Positions 5,153-59,642 of a stretch of 64,000 nt of DNA are shown piece by piece; position 1 is the stretch's first letter, and the number at the start of each line of letters is the position of its first letter. The notes below the pieces were generated by a model that was not told where the DNA came from, did not search any database, and saw nothing but the letters and a program-made list of their open reading frames with translations. The stretch spans positions 62,001 to 126,000 of the IMG/VR virus record IMGVR_UViG_3300006037_000005. One strand, given 5' to 3'. The stretch is from a virus. The translations under genes and the position numbers were made by a program.

Positions 5153-5398
5153 TTAGCAAAAATAATATCTGTTGTTTTCCTCTCTTATTATTTTCTGTGA
5201 CGCAAGTTTTTTTAAAGATAAATCAGTTACAATCTTTTTATCTTTTCCAAAAAGATCCTCAATATCTGAATCTGTGAAATATTCTTTCCCTTTGAAACAG
5301 ATTTGTATATCCTCTGGGGTTGGTGATTCTTTCAAGATTTTAAAAATGCCACTTTTGTATTTTATTGAATCACCAGAGTTTGAATTCTTCTTTGCCAT
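5153..5398 (-). CDS. small hypothetical protein between methyltransferase and helicase
   Basis: The 81-residue protein has a pattern ('IFKILKESPTPEDIQICF...DIEDLFGKDKKIVTDLSLKKLASQKIIREENNRYYF') that resembles a small winged-helix, ending in a beta hairpin. This is an inference from residue spacing, not a recognised family. It overlaps the 3' end of the methyltransferase by 29 bp and abuts the helicase. Confidence 0.55.
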   Translation of the reverse strand: MAKKNSNSGDSIKYKSGIFKILKESPTPEDIQICFKGKEYFTDSDIEDLFGKDKKIVTDLSLKKLASQKIIREENNRYYFC

Positions 5399-6236
5399 CT
5401 TTTATATTTTTAAATATATGTGCTATAACATCAACAGTCCATGAATCACCGATAACATGGGCAGATTTACACCAAGAATTTAATATTTTTGTATAACCTA
5501 TCGGTAGAGTTTGGGCAATCTCCATTTCCTCTATGGTTGGATATCTGTAAATGTCTTTATCTTTTATTATAATAGAATCGGATGGTTTCTTGTGCATAGC
5601 TTTCATTATGCAAGGTATCTTCAATGATTCTGTTGTAATTATTCTTATCCTTGGCCTTTTCAGCTTGTTCAATTGTGTTCCTTTTAAAACCAAAGATTCA
5701 TCATATTGTTTGGAAACATTATCTTTAAAAAGGATATTCCTATCTTTAGGAATATCTATTCCAGGGATATTAGTCCAATAAAGTCTCCCTCTCGTCTGAC
5801 AAGAAACCAAAGAAGAACATATCCTAATTGGCTCGACACCAAGTATGCTTGTTATATGATCTTTCCATTGTGTTTTCATCACAACATTTTCAAGAAAGAA
5901 ATATTTTGGCTTCGTTTCTTCAAGAATTCTAACATACTGATAAAACAAACCAGATTTTCCATCAAAGCCAGTCATATCACCAGAGAAACTGAAACTTTGG
6001 CAAGGAGAGCCACCGATCAAAAGATCTATTTTTGGTAAATCTTGACCTTTCACTCCCCTCACATCGCCAAGTTGTATTGTATTAGGATGGTGGTGTTGAG
6101 TTACTTTGATTGAATCCTTGTGGATTTCCGAAGCAAAATAATTCTTAAATCTAATATGTGCTTTCAATAAAGCAAGTTGCCCAACTGATATACCATCAAA
6201 TAAAGAAACAACATTTTCTATATCATATTGCATCAT
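5370..6236 (-). CDS. C5-cytosine DNA methyltransferase (short form)
   Basis: Class I methyltransferase motifs are in order: motif I 'SLFDGISVGQLAL', motif IV GGSPCQSFSFSG with the catalytic Cys, motif VI 'FLENV', motif VIII CQTRGRLYW, and motif X 'IGDSWTVDVIAHIF'. The product is about 288 residues from the double ATG at 6233-6236. A longer start at 6260 would overlap the kinase gene further. It is shorter than the paralogue at 11568-12590 (340 aa), mainly in the region before motif X that holds the target-recognition domain. The usually conserved Asn of motif X (GN.W) is Asp here (GDSW). It probably methylates phage DNA against host restriction, but activity is uncertain because of that change. 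Confidence 0.85.
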   Translation of the reverse strand: MMQYDIENVVSLFDGISVGQLALLKAHIRFKNYFASEIHKDSIKVTQHHHPNTIQLGDVRGVKGQDLPKIDLLIGGSPCQSFSFSGDMTGFDGKSGLFYQYVRILEETKPKYFFLENVVMKTQWKDHITSILGVEPIRICSSLVSCQTRGRLYWTNIPGIDIPKDRNILFKDNVSKQYDESLVLKGTQLNKLKRPRIRIITTESLKIPCIMKAMHKKPSDSIIIKDKDIYRYPTIEEMEIAQTLPIGYTKILNSWCKSAHVIGDSWTVDVIAHIFKNIKDGKEEFKLW

Positions 6237-6699
6237 GAGTACCCATGTGTCTAATTTCATCCTTCAAGAAAGGTAAGACCATCCTTATTTTCGAAAACCC
6301 AATTGCTTCCTCTTTTTCTATGGCTTCTATCCATTCGAACCATTTTCCATCAAGCATTCTGATGAAATTTTCATCACTTCCACGTTCTTTATATCTATCC
6401 AAAAATTCATTCTTTCTTGTTATTTCTGGATATACTAGATAGAAGAATATACATTCATCAAGTAGAGCATCTCTGACTTCTTTGTGTGATGAAACGAAAA
6501 TGATCTTGTACTTTCCTATATTGGCTTTTATGTGATCAATATAATTCTTTGGAAATTCTGAATTTCTTGTCTTTTTGCCATTTTCGTCTACAGACCAACT
6601 AAATTCAGAGGAATCTGAATCAAGTGTTGTCTCTTTGTTTTCATTATAATATGACGTTTTACCACATCCAGGAAATGCTGAAATTATCTTTGTTCTCAT
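6223..6699 (-). CDS. P-loop nucleotide kinase-like protein
   Basis: Starting at the ATG at 6699, directly after the recombinase stop, the protein is about 158 residues and begins 'MRTKIISAFPGCGKTSYY', a P-loop (PGCGKT). It continues with 'TLDSDSSEF' and 'IIFVSSHKEVRDAL', the pattern seen in phage P-loop kinases related to deoxynucleotide or adenylate kinases. The longer ORF start at 6804 would run deep into the recombinase gene and is rejected. The substrate cannot be assigned. It overlaps the methyltransferase start (ATGATGCAATATGA). Confidence 0.7.
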   Translation of the reverse strand: MRTKIISAFPGCGKTSYYNENKETTLDSDSSEFSWSVDENGKKTRNSEFPKNYIDHIKANIGKYKIIFVSSHKEVRDALLDECIFFYLVYPEITRKNEFLDRYKERGSDENFIRMLDGKWFEWIEAIEKEEAIGFSKIRMVLPFLKDEIRHMGTHDAI

Positions 6700-11567: not shown

Positions 11568-12590
11568 TTACCATAGAGGATCTTTGTGTCCATGAATAAT
11601 ACCATTGAATATATGTGCTATCACATCAACGGTCCAGCCATTACCTAGCATTTTATATCTTTGGTTGTCTGAGACACCCTGTGTGTATCCATCTTCAACT
11701 GTCTGTAGTCTTTCACATTCTGTTGGTGTTAATTTTCTTATAAAATTATCTGTTAAAACACCATGCCTATCGACAGCAGTTAATGTATAGAATTTTGATT
11801 TTGGTGGTTTAAATCTACCTCCATTGTGCCTAGATTTCAATTTGTCTGGTACTAAGCAAGGTATGGCATATAAACCTGTTTTTGCACCAAGACCACCACC
11901 ATTTGCTGATAATGTTACAGATTTATAATGTATGTTATACACTCTATTCCCTTGTGAATCTGTTCCAATAAAAGCAATCTTTCTTCTATCAACTTCATTA
12001 TCACAAATTATTATAGATCTTTCAGTATTTATGATATATTTTTGATCAACTTCCTCCTCAAGTATATCCTCCACTGTTAGTTTCGATTTTTCATATTCAA
12101 GATTCACTGGTATGTTCGTCCAATACCACCTTATTCTTTCCTGTGCTGAAAAATCTGTAGAATCTATTCTGATTGGATAAACTCCGACCAACTTTGTTAT
12201 GACATCCAAATACTCCTCTTTCATATTAACATTTTCAAGAAAGAAATATTTTGGTTGAAGTTCGTTCTTTAATCTCAGAAATTCAAAAAACAATTTACTC
12301 CTAGGATCATCAAAGTTTAACTGCTTACCAGCAAAACTAAAACCTTGGCATGGGCTTCCTCCCATCAAAAGGTCTATTTTTGGCAGATCTGTTGTCTTTA
12401 TATTTCTAACGTCACCAAGTTGTATTGTATTAGGAAAATTCTTTTGTGTGATAAAAATAGAAGATCTGCAAATTTCTGAGGCAAAGTATTGTTTGTATTT
12501 GATACCAATTTTGTTTAGTGCTATCTGCCCACACGACATACCATCAAAACATGATAAAACATTTTCTATTCCAAAATTCTGTTGCTCCAT
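11568..12590 (-). CDS. C5-cytosine DNA methyltransferase (full-length form)
   Basis: The 340-residue protein has all main motifs: I 'LSCFDGMSCGQIAL', IV GGSPCQGFSFAG, VI 'FLENV', VIII 'SAQERIRWYW' and X 'MLGNGWTVDVIAHIF'. The segment between VIII and X (about residues 190-290) is the target-recognition region and contains 'HYKSVTLSANGGGLGAKTGL'. It is a paralogue of 5370-6236, clearly alike at both ends but different in the recognition region, so the two probably methylate different sites. Both end in Leu-Trp. It is the last gene of the operon that starts near 18231. Confidence 0.88.
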   Translation of the reverse strand: MEQQNFGIENVLSCFDGMSCGQIALNKIGIKYKQYFASEICRSSIFITQKNFPNTIQLGDVRNIKTTDLPKIDLLMGGSPCQGFSFAGKQLNFDDPRSKLFFEFLRLKNELQPKYFFLENVNMKEEYLDVITKLVGVYPIRIDSTDFSAQERIRWYWTNIPVNLEYEKSKLTVEDILEEEVDQKYIINTERSIIICDNEVDRRKIAFIGTDSQGNRVYNIHYKSVTLSANGGGLGAKTGLYAIPCLVPDKLKSRHNGGRFKPPKSKFYTLTAVDRHGVLTDNFIRKLTPTECERLQTVEDGYTQGVSDNQRYKMLGNGWTVDVIAHIFNGIIHGHKDPLW

Positions 12591-14033: not shown

Positions 14034-15053
14034 TTAATCAAAAATGCCATATTCCTCAACAACACCATTTTCATCAAAGATTTCATAATAGCCTTTTTGG
14101 CCTTCATAATAGTCTATCGTTTCGAAGATTATGTGATTAGAATTATCATCAAATCCATATGTTTTGAAAATACCATGTTTCAGACCATTTTTGTAAACAC
14201 CAGATATTTTGATTTCTCCAGAATTGAAATAGACAGTGTTCCTTCCATCAAGAACACCGTTGTTGTAAGTCATGCTTGAAACAATGCAACCATCTTCATC
14301 AAATTTCTTTGCTACACCGTGTATTTTCGAATTCTCATTCAAAACGAATTCAAATTTCAATTCACCATTTGTGTGATAAAGTCTGATTGTTCCCTTTACA
14401 TTGTGGTTACCATCTTCAAAATCAGATGATGCCAATTCTTCTTTATACGCTGTACGTATTTTGTCACGAATCCTGTGTACCCTTGTTTTTACAGCACCTT
14501 CGGTATTAAGTTCGTATTTTTCTTTTATCTGAGTATAATCATTTTGTGAGAAAATCGCATCTTTAAAAAATGTTAATTTATCTTCCTCAAGATTTTCAAC
14601 AATGTTAAGAACTCTATTGTATTGTTTATCGAAACTGTTATGTAAAAGTTCACAACACTCCACAGAATTCATTGAATCATCTTTATCTTTATTGATGATG
14701 TCTAGTAGATCATTCGAATCTTCAATATCATCGAAGACGTTTAATTTTGAGATTGCTACAACTTTAGCTTTTGCAGATTTGTTGTAAAGCATTTTAGAAA
14801 AATTTTGCGAAAGAGTGTAGATGTAAGATAAGAAAGATTTATCATCTACGAAAGTGTAATTTTTGTTGGAATGGACCTTTATGAAGACCGTCTGTGCGAT
14901 TTCTTCAACCAAGGCTGAATTTCTAAGAATGTTGTTTGAGGCTGACTTTACTATCGGTAGACATATTTTGTAAAGTTCATTGAAATTTTTTTCACTACGG
15001 TTTTCGAAATATTGTTTTGCAACAGCCTGGATTTTTAAAGATTTTGGGTTCAT
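14034..15053 (-). CDS. ECF-type sigma factor fused to MORN-like repeats
   Basis: The first ~200 of 339 residues read as an ECF sigma factor. Region 2 includes 'VEEIAQTVFIKVHSN...FLSYIYTLSQNF', and a region-4 helix-turn-helix is seen in 'YTQIKEKYELNTEGAVKTRVHRIRDKI'. The rest (about 225-339) is a set of MORN/YwqK-like repeats: 'GTIRLYHTNGELKFE', 'GVAKKFDEDGCIVSS', 'GRNTVYFNSGEIKISG', 'GIFKTYGFDDNS', 'GYYEIFDENGVVEEYG'. MORN-like repeats are usually binding or antitoxin-like modules, so the fusion is unusual. It may redirect host RNA polymerase and be controlled through the repeat domain. About 70 bp without genes lies upstream, enough for a promoter. Confidence 0.75.
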   Translation of the reverse strand: MNPKSLKIQAVAKQYFENRSEKNFNELYKICLPIVKSASNNILRNSALVEEIAQTVFIKVHSNKNYTFVDDKSFLSYIYTLSQNFSKMLYNKSAKAKVVAISKLNVFDDIEDSNDLLDIINKDKDDSMNSVECCELLHNSFDKQYNRVLNIVENLEEDKLTFFKDAIFSQNDYTQIKEKYELNTEGAVKTRVHRIRDKIRTAYKEELASSDFEDGNHNVKGTIRLYHTNGELKFEFVLNENSKIHGVAKKFDEDGCIVSSMTYNNGVLDGRNTVYFNSGEIKISGVYKNGLKHGIFKTYGFDDNSNHIIFETIDYYEGQKGYYEIFDENGVVEEYGIFD

Positions 15054-15126: not shown

Positions 15127-16251
15127 TTAAGAATTTGTTAAGAAATCAGCTGGAGTATAAACTTCATATCCAATGGAGAAAATATCTTTTATGATAGATT
15201 TGAATTTGTTGTATCCAAGTTTTTGTATTTCATCTGAATAGACGTGATATAAAGGGTTTTCAAAATATTTTTCGGCATTAGAATATCTAAGTATATCTTC
15301 TTTTTTATCTGAAAGTATTTTATTGGATTTCAATATATCAAAACGTTTTTCAGTCAAAAAATCATCGATATTTGATATAAAGAAACCGAATTTTTCTTTT
15401 ACCTTATCAACATTTGCCTTGCTAGTAGTCATACCGAACAACAAGTAATAATCCTTGTTATAGGATGTTCTAGAGATCTGAATGCTATAGCAAAGATTTT
15501 CGTCATATCTGAATATTTTGTAAAGTGGACTATTTAAGCCATCAGAAAAATAATCACAAATGAAAGATGAGAGATAATGATAACTTGATATTTTGTTGGT
15601 TAAAAATAATATTGGATAGAGGTCATCTGATTCTCCGATTCTAATGAAATCCGATTCATTAGATGGCCTTCTATCAGAAAGATCAAATTCGGTGAAGGAT
15701 TTTTTCTCAAAATTGGTCTCTAAATTTTTTGAAACATTTACTACTGAAGATGGATTTTCAAATATTGTTTTTAACCATTCATCGATTTTTGGTTTTGTGC
15801 AAGATCTTATATCTTCTATAGAACCTATTGGCATGTAATCACTAAAAACCTTCCTGTGAACATTCATCAACAGATTACCAAATGGTGAATCTGTTGAATC
15901 ATAATATTCTTGAATTATTATGTTCTTTTCTTTTTCTATAACTTCCTGAGAGAATTCTAGATTCAATATCCTTTTAAGAATTTCTTCTTTATGAAATGAT
16001 AGTTTATCTTCGAAACCTTTAAAATGGAAAACTATCTGTTCAGGAGAGGTGTAAGCATTCCATTCTATAAAATCTTTTTGTAAATCATCAAAGATATCAT
16101 TGAGGCTTTCACATATCAAATGTTCACAGATGTGAGAATATCCTCTAAAACCATAATACTCAACAGAGGAAGAACCATTATAAACTATCCAAAGAGAAGA
16201 TAGATCATTATTAGATTTTATGTTTATGATATTAGAAAGAGCAGAATCCAT
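15127..16251 (-). CDS. M16-family (insulinase/processing-peptidase-like) zinc protease
   Basis: The 374-residue protein has the inverted zinc motif HxxEH at residues 40-44 (HICEH). A 'WNAYTSPEQIVFHF' strand follows, and 'EKEKNIIIQEYYDS' gives the third zinc ligand Glu115, about 71 residues later as in M16 enzymes. The C-terminal half has 'LNSPLYKIFRYDENLCYSI', matching the Arg/Tyr substrate-binding segment of the second M16 domain. Both domains appear present but compact. A phage role could be processing of a host or virion polypeptide. It is unrelated to the T4 prohead protease. Confidence 0.8.
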   Translation of the reverse strand: MDSALSNIINIKSNNDLSSLWIVYNGSSSVEYYGFRGYSHICEHLICESLNDIFDDLQKDFIEWNAYTSPEQIVFHFKGFEDKLSFHKEEILKRILNLEFSQEVIEKEKNIIIQEYYDSTDSPFGNLLMNVHRKVFSDYMPIGSIEDIRSCTKPKIDEWLKTIFENPSSVVNVSKNLETNFEKKSFTEFDLSDRRPSNESDFIRIGESDDLYPILFLTNKISSYHYLSSFICDYFSDGLNSPLYKIFRYDENLCYSIQISRTSYNKDYYLLFGMTTSKANVDKVKEKFGFFISNIDDFLTEKRFDILKSNKILSDKKEDILRYSNAEKYFENPLYHVYSDEIQKLGYNKFKSIIKDIFSIGYEVYTPADFLTNS

Positions 16252-16274
16252 GTTTTTCTATATATAACAAAAAT

Positions 16275-16877
16275 CTATCTTTGAATAGGTATGAATTGTG
16301 GTTCACCATTTTCTATGGTGAAAGAACCATATGGTAAAGCGAATTCTTTCACATCTTTTACATCTTCATACTTCACTGGTATGCCAAATTGTAAAAGTAA
16401 AGTATAAAGATTCGTAGCTGTTACATCAATAAGTGTTCTATCTTCCTTATATTCCACCTTGAATGCTATTTTATCTTCATCTATATCAACACCAGAATTG
16501 TGTAAAGCAAGGAATACATCTCTTACAGCTAAACAGAATTTTTGTTTGTCTGTTTTATCACCATCTTTCTCGATATCAAATATATCTTTTATAATAAGTG
16601 AAACGGTTGCATTGAGTTTTTCTATATCAAAATTGGCTATGATCTTCTGTTGGTGAAAATTTCTAGCATCTTCAATATTATCAAAATTTGTTGATAACAC
16701 TGGATATATTTTAACTATATGAGATTCTTTATATTTAGCAACTTTATCCACAAGATCTTTAAAATCTTGGCAGATTGTTATAAGATTTTTCGTTGCACTA
16801 TCAGATGTCTGATCAGATAAAATAAGACTTGTTTTTTTCGTGAAATAAACTACGTATTCTGGTTCTTTAAATTCCAT
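16275..16877 (-). CDS. hypothetical protein upstream of M16 peptidase
   Basis: The 200-residue protein has no recognised domain. It has mixed alpha/beta character, with 'YVVYFTKKTSLILSDQ' at the start, a helical centre and a beta-like C-terminus. It starts one base after the preceding gene's stop and precedes the M16 peptidase by about 20 bp, so a shared role is possible but not shown. Confidence 0.57.
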   Translation of the reverse strand: MEFKEPEYVVYFTKKTSLILSDQTSDSATKNLITICQDFKDLVDKVAKYKESHIVKIYPVLSTNFDNIEDARNFHQQKIIANFDIEKLNATVSLIIKDIFDIEKDGDKTDKQKFCLAVRDVFLALHNSGVDIDEDKIAFKVEYKEDRTLIDVTATNLYTLLLQFGIPVKYEDVKDVKEFALPYGSFTIENGEPQFIPIQR

Positions 16878-21915: not shown

Positions 21916-23220
21916 TCAAATCTCAAATCTATCCTCTGTATATTTACCAGTTCCAATCCAACGCATTTTAACATTGGAGAATTCTTTTGAAGATTTTATG
22001 ACAGAATAAATATTTTCTTCTAACCAATCTTTGAATTTATCGGTAATAATATCTGTTCTCTCATTCATATTCCAATCCACATGGTTAGCAAAATTTACTG
22101 ATATGAATATTTTATGTGGTGTTTGATTGAAGATTATTGAATCTTCCAAATTTTTTTTAGAAAATGTTGCAACTCTTCTTGGTAATTTTGTTAAAGTTGT
22201 TAATGATGTTAAATCTTCGTCTGCACCACAACCAAGTCTAACATCTTCCCAAGTTATTTCTTTTTGATCATCATACCAATCACCAGAATATGAATCAACC
22301 TCCTGATAGTCGTAGTTACCAGATTGAACTTCAGCCCAAGTCAAGAATTTTCTTGAAACAATATCAATATATTTCTTGCTATTGATACGAATCGGAAATG
22401 TTCTAGTATTTAATGCTATATTGCCAACAACTGTGACAGGCAAAAACATATCATCAAGACCAGCAGAAACAGTCACATTTCTTGATGTGGTATTCGTACC
22501 AAACAAACCATAGCCATTAGAAAGAGGAAATCCTTGAGCAAGTTCCAACAAACCAGACTGACCTTGGGAAAGTCTCGTTAAAATTTCCCTTGGAACATCA
22601 CAGATAAACTCAGCAAGTTCTGGGACATCTTTAGCCAAAAGTTGATTTTTATCTCTCAGCACACGTCTTGCTCTAGTGCATCCAACACCACTTGATGTGC
22701 TACCAGTTGCATAAGTACCCTTGTGTTCTTCAATGGCTGGTTTACCATCAAAACCATATTTACCTTCTTCATAGAGTCTGTCGATATCTTGAACAATAGC
22801 TGTCATTGGAGAGATACCAATTTTGTTACGAGGGATACCTGTAATTTCAATTTCATTGAAAAATGCTTTCAAATCTATGATGCCACCTTGACCAATATAC
22901 ATTTTTTCGAATTCGTAATGGCGATGTGCATTTGAATTAAATTGTTTATAAACAATTTCTTTGCTACCATTGGCTCTATCGATTACAGTATGTGATGCTT
23001 GTGGTGCAAATGTATTACAAACAAATTGGAATTTACCAACATTTTGCATCGTAATAAAAGAGCCAAGGCTACCTTTGCCTGCAGAACCAGCACATGAATC
23101 GAGTATTACCGATAATTTACCTGATAAGAAAAATTCGTCTTCTTTTTTCATTTCTAATTTTTTTGGTGTTTCTTCTATTATTGCTTTACTACATGGGGGT
23201 TTCAATATAAATGGTGTCAA
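21916..23220 (-). CDS. adenylosuccinate synthetase family, PurZ-like (catalytic Asp replaced by Ser)
   Basis: The 434-residue protein aligns with PurA along its length. 'LDSCAGSAGKGSLGSF' (41-55) corresponds to the GDEGKGK loop of PurA, 'PQASHTVI' holds the conserved catalytic His77 (PurA NAGHT), and 'SSGVGCTRARR' and 'SAGLDDMFLPVTVVG' follow in order. The catalytic Asp of the GDEGKG loop is Ser46 and the Glu is Ala47. From memory of the PurZ literature, a small residue at this Asp position marks PurZ enzymes, which use dGMP to make 2-aminoadenylosuccinate for 2-aminoadenine DNA. It may instead be a diverged PurA. The gene is monocistronic, with a terminator 33 bp after the stop. M24 is an alternative start. 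Confidence 0.78.
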   Translation of the reverse strand: MTPFILKPPCSKAIIEETPKKLEMKKEDEFFLSGKLSVILDSCAGSAGKGSLGSFITMQNVGKFQFVCNTFAPQASHTVIDRANGSKEIVYKQFNSNAHRHYEFEKMYIGQGGIIDLKAFFNEIEITGIPRNKIGISPMTAIVQDIDRLYEEGKYGFDGKPAIEEHKGTYATGSTSSGVGCTRARRVLRDKNQLLAKDVPELAEFICDVPREILTRLSQGQSGLLELAQGFPLSNGYGLFGTNTTSRNVTVSAGLDDMFLPVTVVGNIALNTRTFPIRINSKKYIDIVSRKFLTWAEVQSGNYDYQEVDSYSGDWYDDQKEITWEDVRLGCGADEDLTSLTTLTKLPRRVATFSKKNLEDSIIFNQTPHKIFISVNFANHVDWNMNERTDIITDKFKDWLEENIYSVIKSSKEFSNVKMRWIGTGKYTEDRFEI

Positions 23221-56635: not shown

Positions 56636-56904
56636 TTTTGATTATTTATTATATCTATAATTCCTTTGTTGAATTTATCGTTTTTCCAAATTGTCACACA
56701 TGAACTCCATTTTGTTTCAAACATGGATGTTGTTACCATGACAATACGATTTTCATCACCGTCTTGTCTTATTTGAAAGTCACAATTTGAAGTATATGTA
56801 CCAACAAAATCACCATCATCTGTGTAAATATTAAAACGAGCACCATATGGCAAAATTCCTATCACATGGTGCAAAATATCTTGTAAATATCCTATATCAG
56901 TCAT
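56632..56904 (-). CDS. small hypothetical protein
   Basis: The 90-residue beta-rich protein ('ARFNIYTDDGDFVGTYTSNC', 'RIVMVTTSMFETKWSSCVTIW') has overlaps of 4 bp with both the polymerase N-half and the exonuclease gene. No family is recognised. Confidence 0.57.
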   Translation of the reverse strand: MTDIGYLQDILHHVIGILPYGARFNIYTDDGDFVGTYTSNCDFQIRQDGDENRIVMVTTSMFETKWSSCVTIWKNDKFNKGIIDIINNQK

Positions 56905-58445
56905 GCCGTTTTATTTTTCTTTTTCTCAAGAAGTTCCTTCATATTTTTGATATCCACCTCAATCTCATCGGCATTTTTACCTGCCTCAACTCTACCAAAA
57001 AATAAATCAAAAATTATTTCTCTCATAACAGAAGATTTTTCTTTTGTGAATATTGCTCCAGACACAGAATTTACCATTGTATCATCAATATTTTGCCTTG
57101 TACCATCTTTGTGGGAAATATAGGTCTTTGAATTTTCTTCTCTCATACCAAGATAGGTATCTAGACCAGAATTTACCATCATTTTTATTGATGGAAACAA
57201 ACTCTGAAAATCCCAACCACAAACATATTTGAATTTACCAGGCATTGGTTCTTTCACATAACCACCAGCATAAGATTCATCATCATCCCCTTTGAAGAAG
57301 TCGTATTCAACTTCATCCATTTCTTCTTTATACCCTTCATCATAATCTGTTACGATTACCATATTTTTGGCATAAAGTTTCTTCACCAAGAGTGCTTCGA
57401 TTGTTTTAGAAGCATACAAACCATTATCGATTTCTGTATTTGCCACAAAAGCAATGGATCTCAATGAATCGAAACTGTTTATTTTTTCATCTATTAAAGA
57501 GACTATTATGGCATCAACAGCATTATAGAAAATATAAGTTTCAAAATCGTTTTGATAAAGTTCTGTTAAAGTACCATTGTATTCAACTTTCTTAACACCA
57601 AAAAGTTCATTTGCAACCCAATCAAGTTTTGATGATTCTTTGATAGCGACAGATGTATCAAATTTTTCATACATTGCCTGATAGTCGGTTATAAGTCTAT
57701 GAACAGGAAACTTCGTTTTAACGCCTTCACCTTTTTTAGCGAATTTCCTTTTCAGAAGGGAATTCTTCATCTTTCCTGTTGGTGATACCACAGAGACATC
57801 AAGCTTGAGTTTTTCTGCTCTAGCTATAATATATGCCCAGTCAAATGGTTTAAAATTCCAACCACTTATAAAAGGCATTCTCGGTATATCATTTCTTAGG
57901 AGATCAAGAATCATGAGTTCTTCGGAAGTGTAATAACGATACTCCCATCTGAAAGTTCTGTTTAGTTGTTTAAAATGAGCATCAATTCTCGCTTGTATCT
58001 TTTCTATTTGAAGACCAGTCAATTTCACAAGACCAGTAGAAGTTGCTACCTTTGTTTTTTGGCTATAGAAGGTGTTGGTTAGGATTTGTTCTATCGGGTT
58101 CTCCATCAATTCTTGGATTTTGAGTCCGTGTGTCATTGATGTTTCAATATCCATAAACCATTTATCAACCTTGTGGAATTTGAAAAGAGTTGATTTTATT
58201 TCATCTGGTAACCTCTGTATCAATTCTGTTACTCTGTGTTGGGTAAGATATTTAGTTTTTATTTTTTTAATAGCCTTCTCATCATGAGAAAGCATTGATG
58301 TACTTCTACTTGGATCTTTTTCTGAGCAATAAACCCATTTATAAAATTCTGATTCTGGTATTTGTATTTTATGGAATCCAATAGAACCATCCTCTTTTAT
58401 ATAAGAGATAATAAGCTGATCTTTTATCTGTTCTGAATTTATCAT
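56901..58445 (-). CDS. family-B DNA polymerase, N-terminal half (exonuclease and motif A)
   Basis: Residues 94-110 of this 514-residue protein contain exo I 'FMDIET' (D99, E101). Residues 190-205 have exo II 'FISGWNFKPFDW' (N197, D202), and residues 307-311 exo III Y-N-A-V-D. Then come 'YAGGYVKEP' (393-401, the GG/xY linker) and polymerase motif A 'GWDFQSLFPS' with D412. The protein ends soon after, in 'MKELLEKKKNKTA', without motifs B and C. These are in the gene just upstream in transcription order (58449-59642), 3 bp away. The two products sum to 911 residues, like T4 gp43 (898). They must assemble as two chains. Confidence 0.85.
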   Translation of the reverse strand: MINSEQIKDQLIISYIKEDGSIGFHKIQIPESEFYKWVYCSEKDPSRSTSMLSHDEKAIKKIKTKYLTQHRVTELIQRLPDEIKSTLFKFHKVDKWFMDIETSMTHGLKIQELMENPIEQILTNTFYSQKTKVATSTGLVKLTGLQIEKIQARIDAHFKQLNRTFRWEYRYYTSEELMILDLLRNDIPRMPFISGWNFKPFDWAYIIARAEKLKLDVSVVSPTGKMKNSLLKRKFAKKGEGVKTKFPVHRLITDYQAMYEKFDTSVAIKESSKLDWVANELFGVKKVEYNGTLTELYQNDFETYIFYNAVDAIIVSLIDEKINSFDSLRSIAFVANTEIDNGLYASKTIEALLVKKLYAKNMVIVTDYDEGYKEEMDEVEYDFFKGDDDESYAGGYVKEPMPGKFKYVCGWDFQSLFPSIKMMVNSGLDTYLGMREENSKTYISHKDGTRQNIDDTMVNSVSGAIFTKEKSSVMREIIFDLFFGRVEAGKNADEIEVDIKNMKELLEKKKNKTA

Positions 58446-58448
58446 CTT

Positions 58449-59642
58449 TTAAAATAATGATGGGAATAATATCAAGTTTCTATCCAACTCCATTAAATTC
58501 ATAGATTTTAGGATATTGTTTATTGGAGCAAGTATTAATTTTTCGAATTGCAAATCATAATCAATATCCTTTGCAATTTCTATCGGATAAGTTCCTGGTA
58601 AAAAAGAGAAAGTTTCAATTTCATCATTTTTCGTATAGTAATACTTAACCCTATCACCAGATTGAATGAGTTGATATTTGTTTTTGTACTTCGTGTTGTA
58701 CAAAAGATAGTTGTAAACTGCAGAACCTTTCGTATGTGGTTTACAATTTTTACCAATTTCAATGGCTGTTTTATCATTCAAGATAAAATCATAATAATTT
58801 GAGATCCTCTCTGTTTTACAGATGTTGTCTATATCAGTGGTTTCAAATTCATTTCTCAAAGATAGAAGTATGTCTAAAAGTTTATTTTGATTGAACTCAT
58901 TGGATATGATGAACTTTATCATATCCTTGAGTTTGTTTCTGCAAAATTTTGGTATAGAGGATTGAGAGGTTTCAATCCCCTTGGTTTCAATTTTCTCCAA
59001 TGACTTGAATCTATTGCCTTTCTTCCAAATAGTATCTTTGATATATTTTTTCTTGGCTAACCAGATAACAGATTCACAAATTTGTTCAAATACTAATTTG
59101 AAGGCTGGACTACCATCGGTTTTAATTTCAAATCCATTGAATTTCTTTACATAGGAAGATAAAGAATCAATTATGAAATTGTTGATTCGAAATTTACAAA
59201 TATTTTGTATGAAATCAACAAAATCCAATTTTTGACCATCTTTCCAAACAATACCATCGTAAACTGAATCAAAAACAACAAAAACTGAATCTGTATCAAG
59301 ATAATTAACAACATTGTGATGTATTCTTGATACAGATTCAATACCAATTCTGTTGTGCAATTCTGAATCTCTATACCAGATTTCTTTGAAATAATGATTG
59401 AAAACCCTTTCTGTATATTGGATTATATCTTGTGATTGTAAAGTTGTTGATTCCGCAATGTTTCTAAGATAGAAAGGGAATCTGTTAAACCCCTCAACAC
59501 CATAGACAGAATTTAGAATAACTTTACAGCCTTGATCATAATTCCTATTAAAGAGTTTTGATGATTCAAGCCTCTGTATTTCATTCTCTATATCATCAAT
59601 GCTTGAATTTTCATCGACAGAAGAATGCTTGAATTCATACAT
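58449..59642 (-). CDS. family-B DNA polymerase, C-terminal half (motifs B and C)
   Basis: The 397-residue protein begins with a helical segment ('SIDDIENEIQRLESSKLFNR'). It then has motif B 'CKVILNSVYG' (K40, N44, Y47, G48) and motif C 'NYLDTDSV' (D116, D118), the rest being the thumb. It ends 'LDRNLILFPSLF', which may be a clamp-binding tail. It lacks exonuclease and motif A, which are in the downstream gene 56901-58445. Because the C-half is translated first, the order is permuted, so this is not a simple frameshift of one gene. The polymerase active site needs D412 of the other chain. Confidence 0.85.
   Translation of the reverse strand: MYEFKHSSVDENSSIDDIENEIQRLESSKLFNRNYDQGCKVILNSVYGVEGFNRFPFYLRNIAESTTLQSQDIIQYTERVFNHYFKEIWYRDSELHNRIGIESVSRIHHNVVNYLDTDSVFVVFDSVYDGIVWKDGQKLDFVDFIQNICKFRINNFIIDSLSSYVKKFNGFEIKTDGSPAFKLVFEQICESVIWLAKKKYIKDTIWKKGNRFKSLEKIETKGIETSQSSIPKFCRNKLKDMIKFIISNEFNQNKLLDILLSLRNEFETTDIDNICKTERISNYYDFILNDKTAIEIGKNCKPHTKGSAVYNYLLYNTKYKNKYQLIQSGDRVKYYYTKNDEIETFSFLPGTYPIEIAKDIDYDLQFEKLILAPINNILKSMNLMELDRNLILFPSLF

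Follow-up and report, generated by a model that had tools for sequence, protein, structure and literature searches.

Is the adenylosuccinate synthetase homologue of this virus, in which serine replaces the catalytic aspartate of PurA, a PurZ-type enzyme, and does the virus make 2-aminoadenine (Z) nucleotides? The window, a stretch of 64,000 bases, covers bases 62001-126000 of a viral contig (G000) of 126,598 bases that is possibly a fragment. The open reading frame at 21916-23220 on the minus strand was confirmed to be present. Its TTG start at 23220 is unlikely, and the ATG at 23151 is the better start because the alignment with relatives begins there. With this start the residues first numbered Ser46, Ala47, Lys49 and His77 become Ser23, Ala24, Lys26 and His54, and the loop reads G22-S-A-G-K-G27. 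The features relevant to the question are collected in Table 1.

Table 1. Genes of the proposed Z pathway and DNA replication; positions are those of the window unless the contig is named
Feature	Position	Strand	Remarks
purZ-like gene, 411 aa	21916..23151	-	GSAGKG loop, Ser23 replacing PurA Asp13
purB-like gene, adenylosuccinate lyase, 457 aa	46795..48168	+	RTHGQPA and GSSTMP catalytic motifs; proposed dSMP lyase
family-B DNA polymerase, N-terminal half (exonuclease, motif A)	56901..58445	-	
family-B DNA polymerase, C-terminal half (motifs B and C)	58449..59642	-	upstream of N-terminal half
MazG-domain gene, 214 aa	61203..61847	-	weak match just over Pfam cut-off; proposed supplier of dGMP from dGTP
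guanylate-kinase-like gene, 198 aa	61840..62436	-	proposed dZMP/dGMP kinase
DatZ-like HD hydrolase gene	G000 contig 15874-16473		one base from sliding clamp gene
adenosine-deaminase-like gene	G000 contig 58579-59571		left of window; 156 bits to Pfam A_deaminase

The active-site reading of the first-pass annotation, with the catalytic Asp exchanged and the Lys and His kept, was upheld by an alignment of 36 sequences. Ser23 shares its column with PurA Asp13 and with Ser23 of S-2L PurZ, Lys26 falls on PurA Lys16 and His54 on PurA His41. The serine is invariant in 10 of 10 members of the clade that contains the window protein and in every PurZ and PurZ0 aligned, while all aligned PurA sequences have Asp, so Ser23 is not a chance substitution. 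The small residue given for phage PurZ in the first-pass annotation is Ser, which a published survey reports at the Asp13 site of every one of 147 phage PurZ/PurZ0 sequences (PMC12884076). Sixteen diagnostic columns distinguish 11 classic PurZ from 4 PurA sequences; in 13 of them the window protein carries the PurZ letter, among them Ser23, Thr318 and Asn356, of which Asn356 aligns with PurA Asp333 (the GTP-base position). It deviates from classic PurZ in having Gln51 for the pocket Asn (S-2L N49) and Ser53 for a Gly (S-2L G51).

Profile searches matched the protein to Pfam adenylosuccinate synthetase (35 bits) and to the PHROGs family 2-aminooxy adenylosuccinate synthetase. In NCBIfam the top match was PurZ NF038379 with 102 bits, followed by archaeal PurA with 92 bits. 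Because the curated NF038379 cut-off of 300 bits was not reached, we place the protein as a deep branch of the PurZ clade and not as a member of the curated model. A tblastn search matched 62 phage records, each with a PurZ-type gene, the nearest annotated relative being Flavobacterium phage MaF61 (37%). Hits in 'Acinetobacter phage MD-2021a', in Listeria or Enterococcus 'phage' fragments and the like were left uncounted, as these appear to be bacterial DNA. A scan of IMG/VR viral contigs with the single protein found no relatives and a broad alignment of 18 sequences was too diverse as a query, but alignments of near relatives succeeded, and the contigs on which they recovered relatives range from 8 to 341 kb. 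In a tree of 36 rows, a large-phage clade of 10 rows (the window protein, MaF61 and eight IMG/VR contigs) received support of 100/100, its union with PurZ 100/98 and the split from PurA 100/100. Grouping with PurZ0 was rejected by the AU test (p 0.010). The alignment and tree comparison with PurA and PurZ called for in the first-pass annotation thus put the protein inside the PurZ clade and outside PurA. Phylogenetically it is a divergent PurZ member, and with MaF61 and the eight contigs it forms a new, deep and fully supported PurZ branch.

MaF61 is a cultured Flavobacterium phage with a genome of 168 kb, and the examined passages of its published description report a myovirus by electron microscopy and headful packaging, with no mention of Z status (PMC13269007). 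The terminase, sheath, capsid, clamp, DnaB and polymerase of G000 are distant relatives of their MaF61 counterparts, and the lineage also includes two IMG/VR contigs, G005 (129 kb) and G012 (110 kb). Judged only from relatedness to MaF61, the host is probably a Flavobacterium-like bacterium, in agreement with the Bacteroidota assignment made earlier. A search of genome contigs returned no relative and hence no host hint. The label 'jumbo' is unsupported, with a contig of 126.6 kb that may be incomplete and a closest complete relative of 168 kb. A 341-kb IMG/VR contig (G011, locus L064) is of jumbo size and has a PurZ of the same clade, together with a DutZ-related dUTPase, a MazG gene and an adenosine-deaminase-like gene. 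The purZ gene adjoins the large terminase gene in MaF61, G005 and G012, and not in G000. Elsewhere in the window lie two C5-cytosine methylase genes (5370-6260 and 11568-12590, minus strand), both related to one G012 gene, and a minus-strand reading frame (14034-15053) that weakly matches both sigma-70 region 2 and a MORN-like repeat.

Several possible partner genes, absent from the earlier annotation, co-occur with purZ and are scattered over G000: a PurB, guanylate kinases, a MazG gene, an HD hydrolase and an adenosine-deaminase-like gene. The PurB-like protein scores 293 bits against a solved adenylosuccinate lyase. Among 33 PurZ/PurZ0 phage records, ASL_C was above cut-off solely in G000, MaF61 and G005, in a search that detects PurB of the E. 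coli type only and misses the lyases of Keanu and Ghobes, which a different search recovered, so that its negatives do not mean absence of any PurB. No PurB of this type was found in G012. A lyase of another type was found in PurZ0 phages of Streptomyces and Gordonia, and lyase and PurZ/PurZ0 have therefore probably been brought together more than once. Other phage PurB genes occur mainly in PurZ0 phages (the Hiyaa group and Gordonia phages), the exceptions being Microcystis phage MaAM05 and unannotated records. In the literature the dSMP lyase step is described as bacterial and assigned to the host (PMC12783734).

G000 has two guanylate kinases and MaF61, G005 and G012 have a single one, with none in the nine other records searched. 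Substitution of the Glu that binds the base, by His, Tyr or Lys in MaF61, G005 and G012, was considered as a signature and dropped, as the window phage retains Glu. The MazG gene, also detected in MaF61 and G011, overlaps the window guanylate-kinase gene by 8 bases; its match is weak and it is not demonstrably MazZ. The HD protein is homologous to those of G005 and G012, the latter with the same HD-clamp gene order, and relative to S-2L DatZ it retains His34, His66, Glu70, Asp75 and Asp119, with Glu at the metal-site Asp67. On its own sequence the G000 protein had no Pfam HD match, and taken individually both the HD and MazG assignments are weak. The adenosine-deaminase-like gene is common to G000, G005, G011 and G012 and was found in none of 28 other PurZ/PurZ0 records searched. 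Its product reads NTDG where aligned adenosine deaminases read NSDD, possibly reflecting a change of substrate.

The family-B DNA polymerase mentioned in the first-pass annotation was found in G000 and also in MaF61, G005 and G012. The relatives have a single chain of 945-994 aa; in the window phage two neighbouring genes encode the polymerase, with the break lying between motifs A and B and the order of the halves permuted. No family-A (DpoZ-type) polymerase was found in these four genomes; several relatives outside the lineage have one. S-2L is also without DpoZ and uses PrimPol, showing that a polymerase with no preference for Z can yield Z-DNA once dATP is destroyed (PMC8065100). The missing DpoZ is thus no objection in itself.

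We consider it likely that the enzyme acts in a largely phage-encoded route from dGMP to dZTP, with the DNA copied by the family-B polymerase with Z in place of A. We infer all substrates, the step order and Z in virion DNA as follows. MazG or the host would convert dGTP to dGMP, which the PurZ-like enzyme, as an N6-succino-2-amino-dAMP synthetase, would join to aspartate with ATP or dATP to give dSMP. The phage PurB would remove fumarate to leave dZMP, the phage guanylate kinase would form dZDP, and a host kinase would complete dZTP. In parallel, the HD hydrolase would drain dATP by conversion to dA, which the adenosine-deaminase-like enzyme would perhaps turn into dI. Of the earlier proposal that the phage makes 2-aminoadenine nucleotides, the PurZ placement, the family-B polymerase and the link to Bacteroidota phages are supported, and the jumbo size is not. 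Points against our reading are the 102 bits against a cut-off of 300, Gln51, the Glu at Asp67 of the HD protein and its missing Pfam HD match, the weak MazG match, the lack of DpoZ, the unclustered genes, the lack of the deaminase in MaF61 and the failure to find a PurB of the G000 type in G012.

Three other explanations were weighed. An ordinary PurA that makes adenylosuccinate from IMP and, together with PurB, raises AMP production in the infected host would account for the PurB on the same contig and for the PurA fold. The structure predicted for the window protein (pLDDT 86.5) matched PurZ and archaeal PurA about equally, a comparison that is consistent with both, unable to separate them and hence not decisive. 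This explanation is nevertheless very improbable, as the catalytic Asp13 required of PurA is replaced by Ser throughout the clade, the PurA letter occurs at 0 of the 16 diagnostic columns, and the AU test rejected grouping with PurA (p=0.003). We give the least credence to an enzyme with a different purine substrate, for example a 7-deazaguanine nucleotide. The precedent for it is a rhizobial plasmid cluster (L145:1878-5855) coupling a purA-like gene with purB, folE, queE and IMP dehydrogenase, which is suggestive of a deazapurine pathway; the purA-like protein of that cluster, however, has GDEAKG and groups with PurA, and none of the queC, queD, queE or folE families was found in the 100 contig ORFs scanned. 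Two other rhizobial plasmids (L143:2995-4035 and L144:1982-3595) encode PurA-like proteins with GSEGKG, that is, with Ser at the catalytic Asp, outside known phages.

The remaining explanation accepts a PurZ-type enzyme and supposes that Z replaces only part of A, or that the pathway shifts purine pools instead of building Z-DNA, with a family-B polymerase that does not prefer dZTP. The lack of a DpoZ homologue fits it, as does the Asp67 to Glu change in the HD protein. The example of S-2L shows that a non-selective polymerase depends on dATP removal (PMC8065100). We regard it as unlikely, since PurB, the kinase, MazG, the HD protein and the deaminase together resemble a dedicated supply-and-depletion set.

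Our preferred reading, replacement of A by Z through a largely phage-encoded route, can be set against the known systems. The Z phages described so far encode PurZ or PurZ0 together with pool-regulating enzymes and, in most cases, DpoZ, and Z-DNA has been reported in phages of Pseudomonadota, Cyanobacteriota and Actinomycetota (PMC12884076). With the classic PurZ of phiVC8, S-2L and SH-Ab 15497 the window protein shares the clade, Ser at Asp13, a TTxTK loop and Asn/Gln at the Asp333 position, but it is only about 25% identical, has Gln51 for Asn49 and carries insertions. The genomes of its type are large with scattered partner genes, in contrast to the clustered genes of the small Z phages. 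PurZ0 of Gordonia, Arthrobacter and Streptomyces phages also has Ser at the Asp13 position, and some of these phages encode a PurB-like lyase; they differ in that PurZ0 forms a clade of its own with Asp at the Asp333 position, and in having DutZ/DmtZ partners and usually a family-A polymerase. The closest annotated counterpart is the 'putative adenosuccinate synthetase' of MaF61 (PQ858689), which shares with G000 the company of PurB, guanylate kinase, MazG, HD protein and family-B polymerase. MaF61 differs in having a single-chain polymerase and a ribonucleotide reductase and in being without the adenosine-deaminase-like gene. Lyase, guanylate kinase and adenosine deaminase are unmentioned in the main texts of two papers on Z phages (PMC12884076, PMC8342488), and the literature examined contained no description of an adenosine-deaminase-like enzyme for Z phages. 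A limited literature search returned no report of Z in a large phage with a family-B polymerase.

In the window phage a lyase and a kinase are phage-borne, the polymerase is of family B, and the likely host phylum is outside the reported list. We consider it an even chance that a lineage of large contractile-tailed phages of Flavobacterium-like hosts itself encodes most of the steps from dGTP to dZDP (MazG, PurZ, PurB and guanylate kinase), removes dATP and dA with HD and deaminase-like proteins of its own, and copies Z-DNA with a family-B polymerase. The cultured relative MaF61 makes a direct test possible. Confirmation of Z would mean that a further polymerase family has to cope with dZTP and that A is replaced in large phage genomes too.
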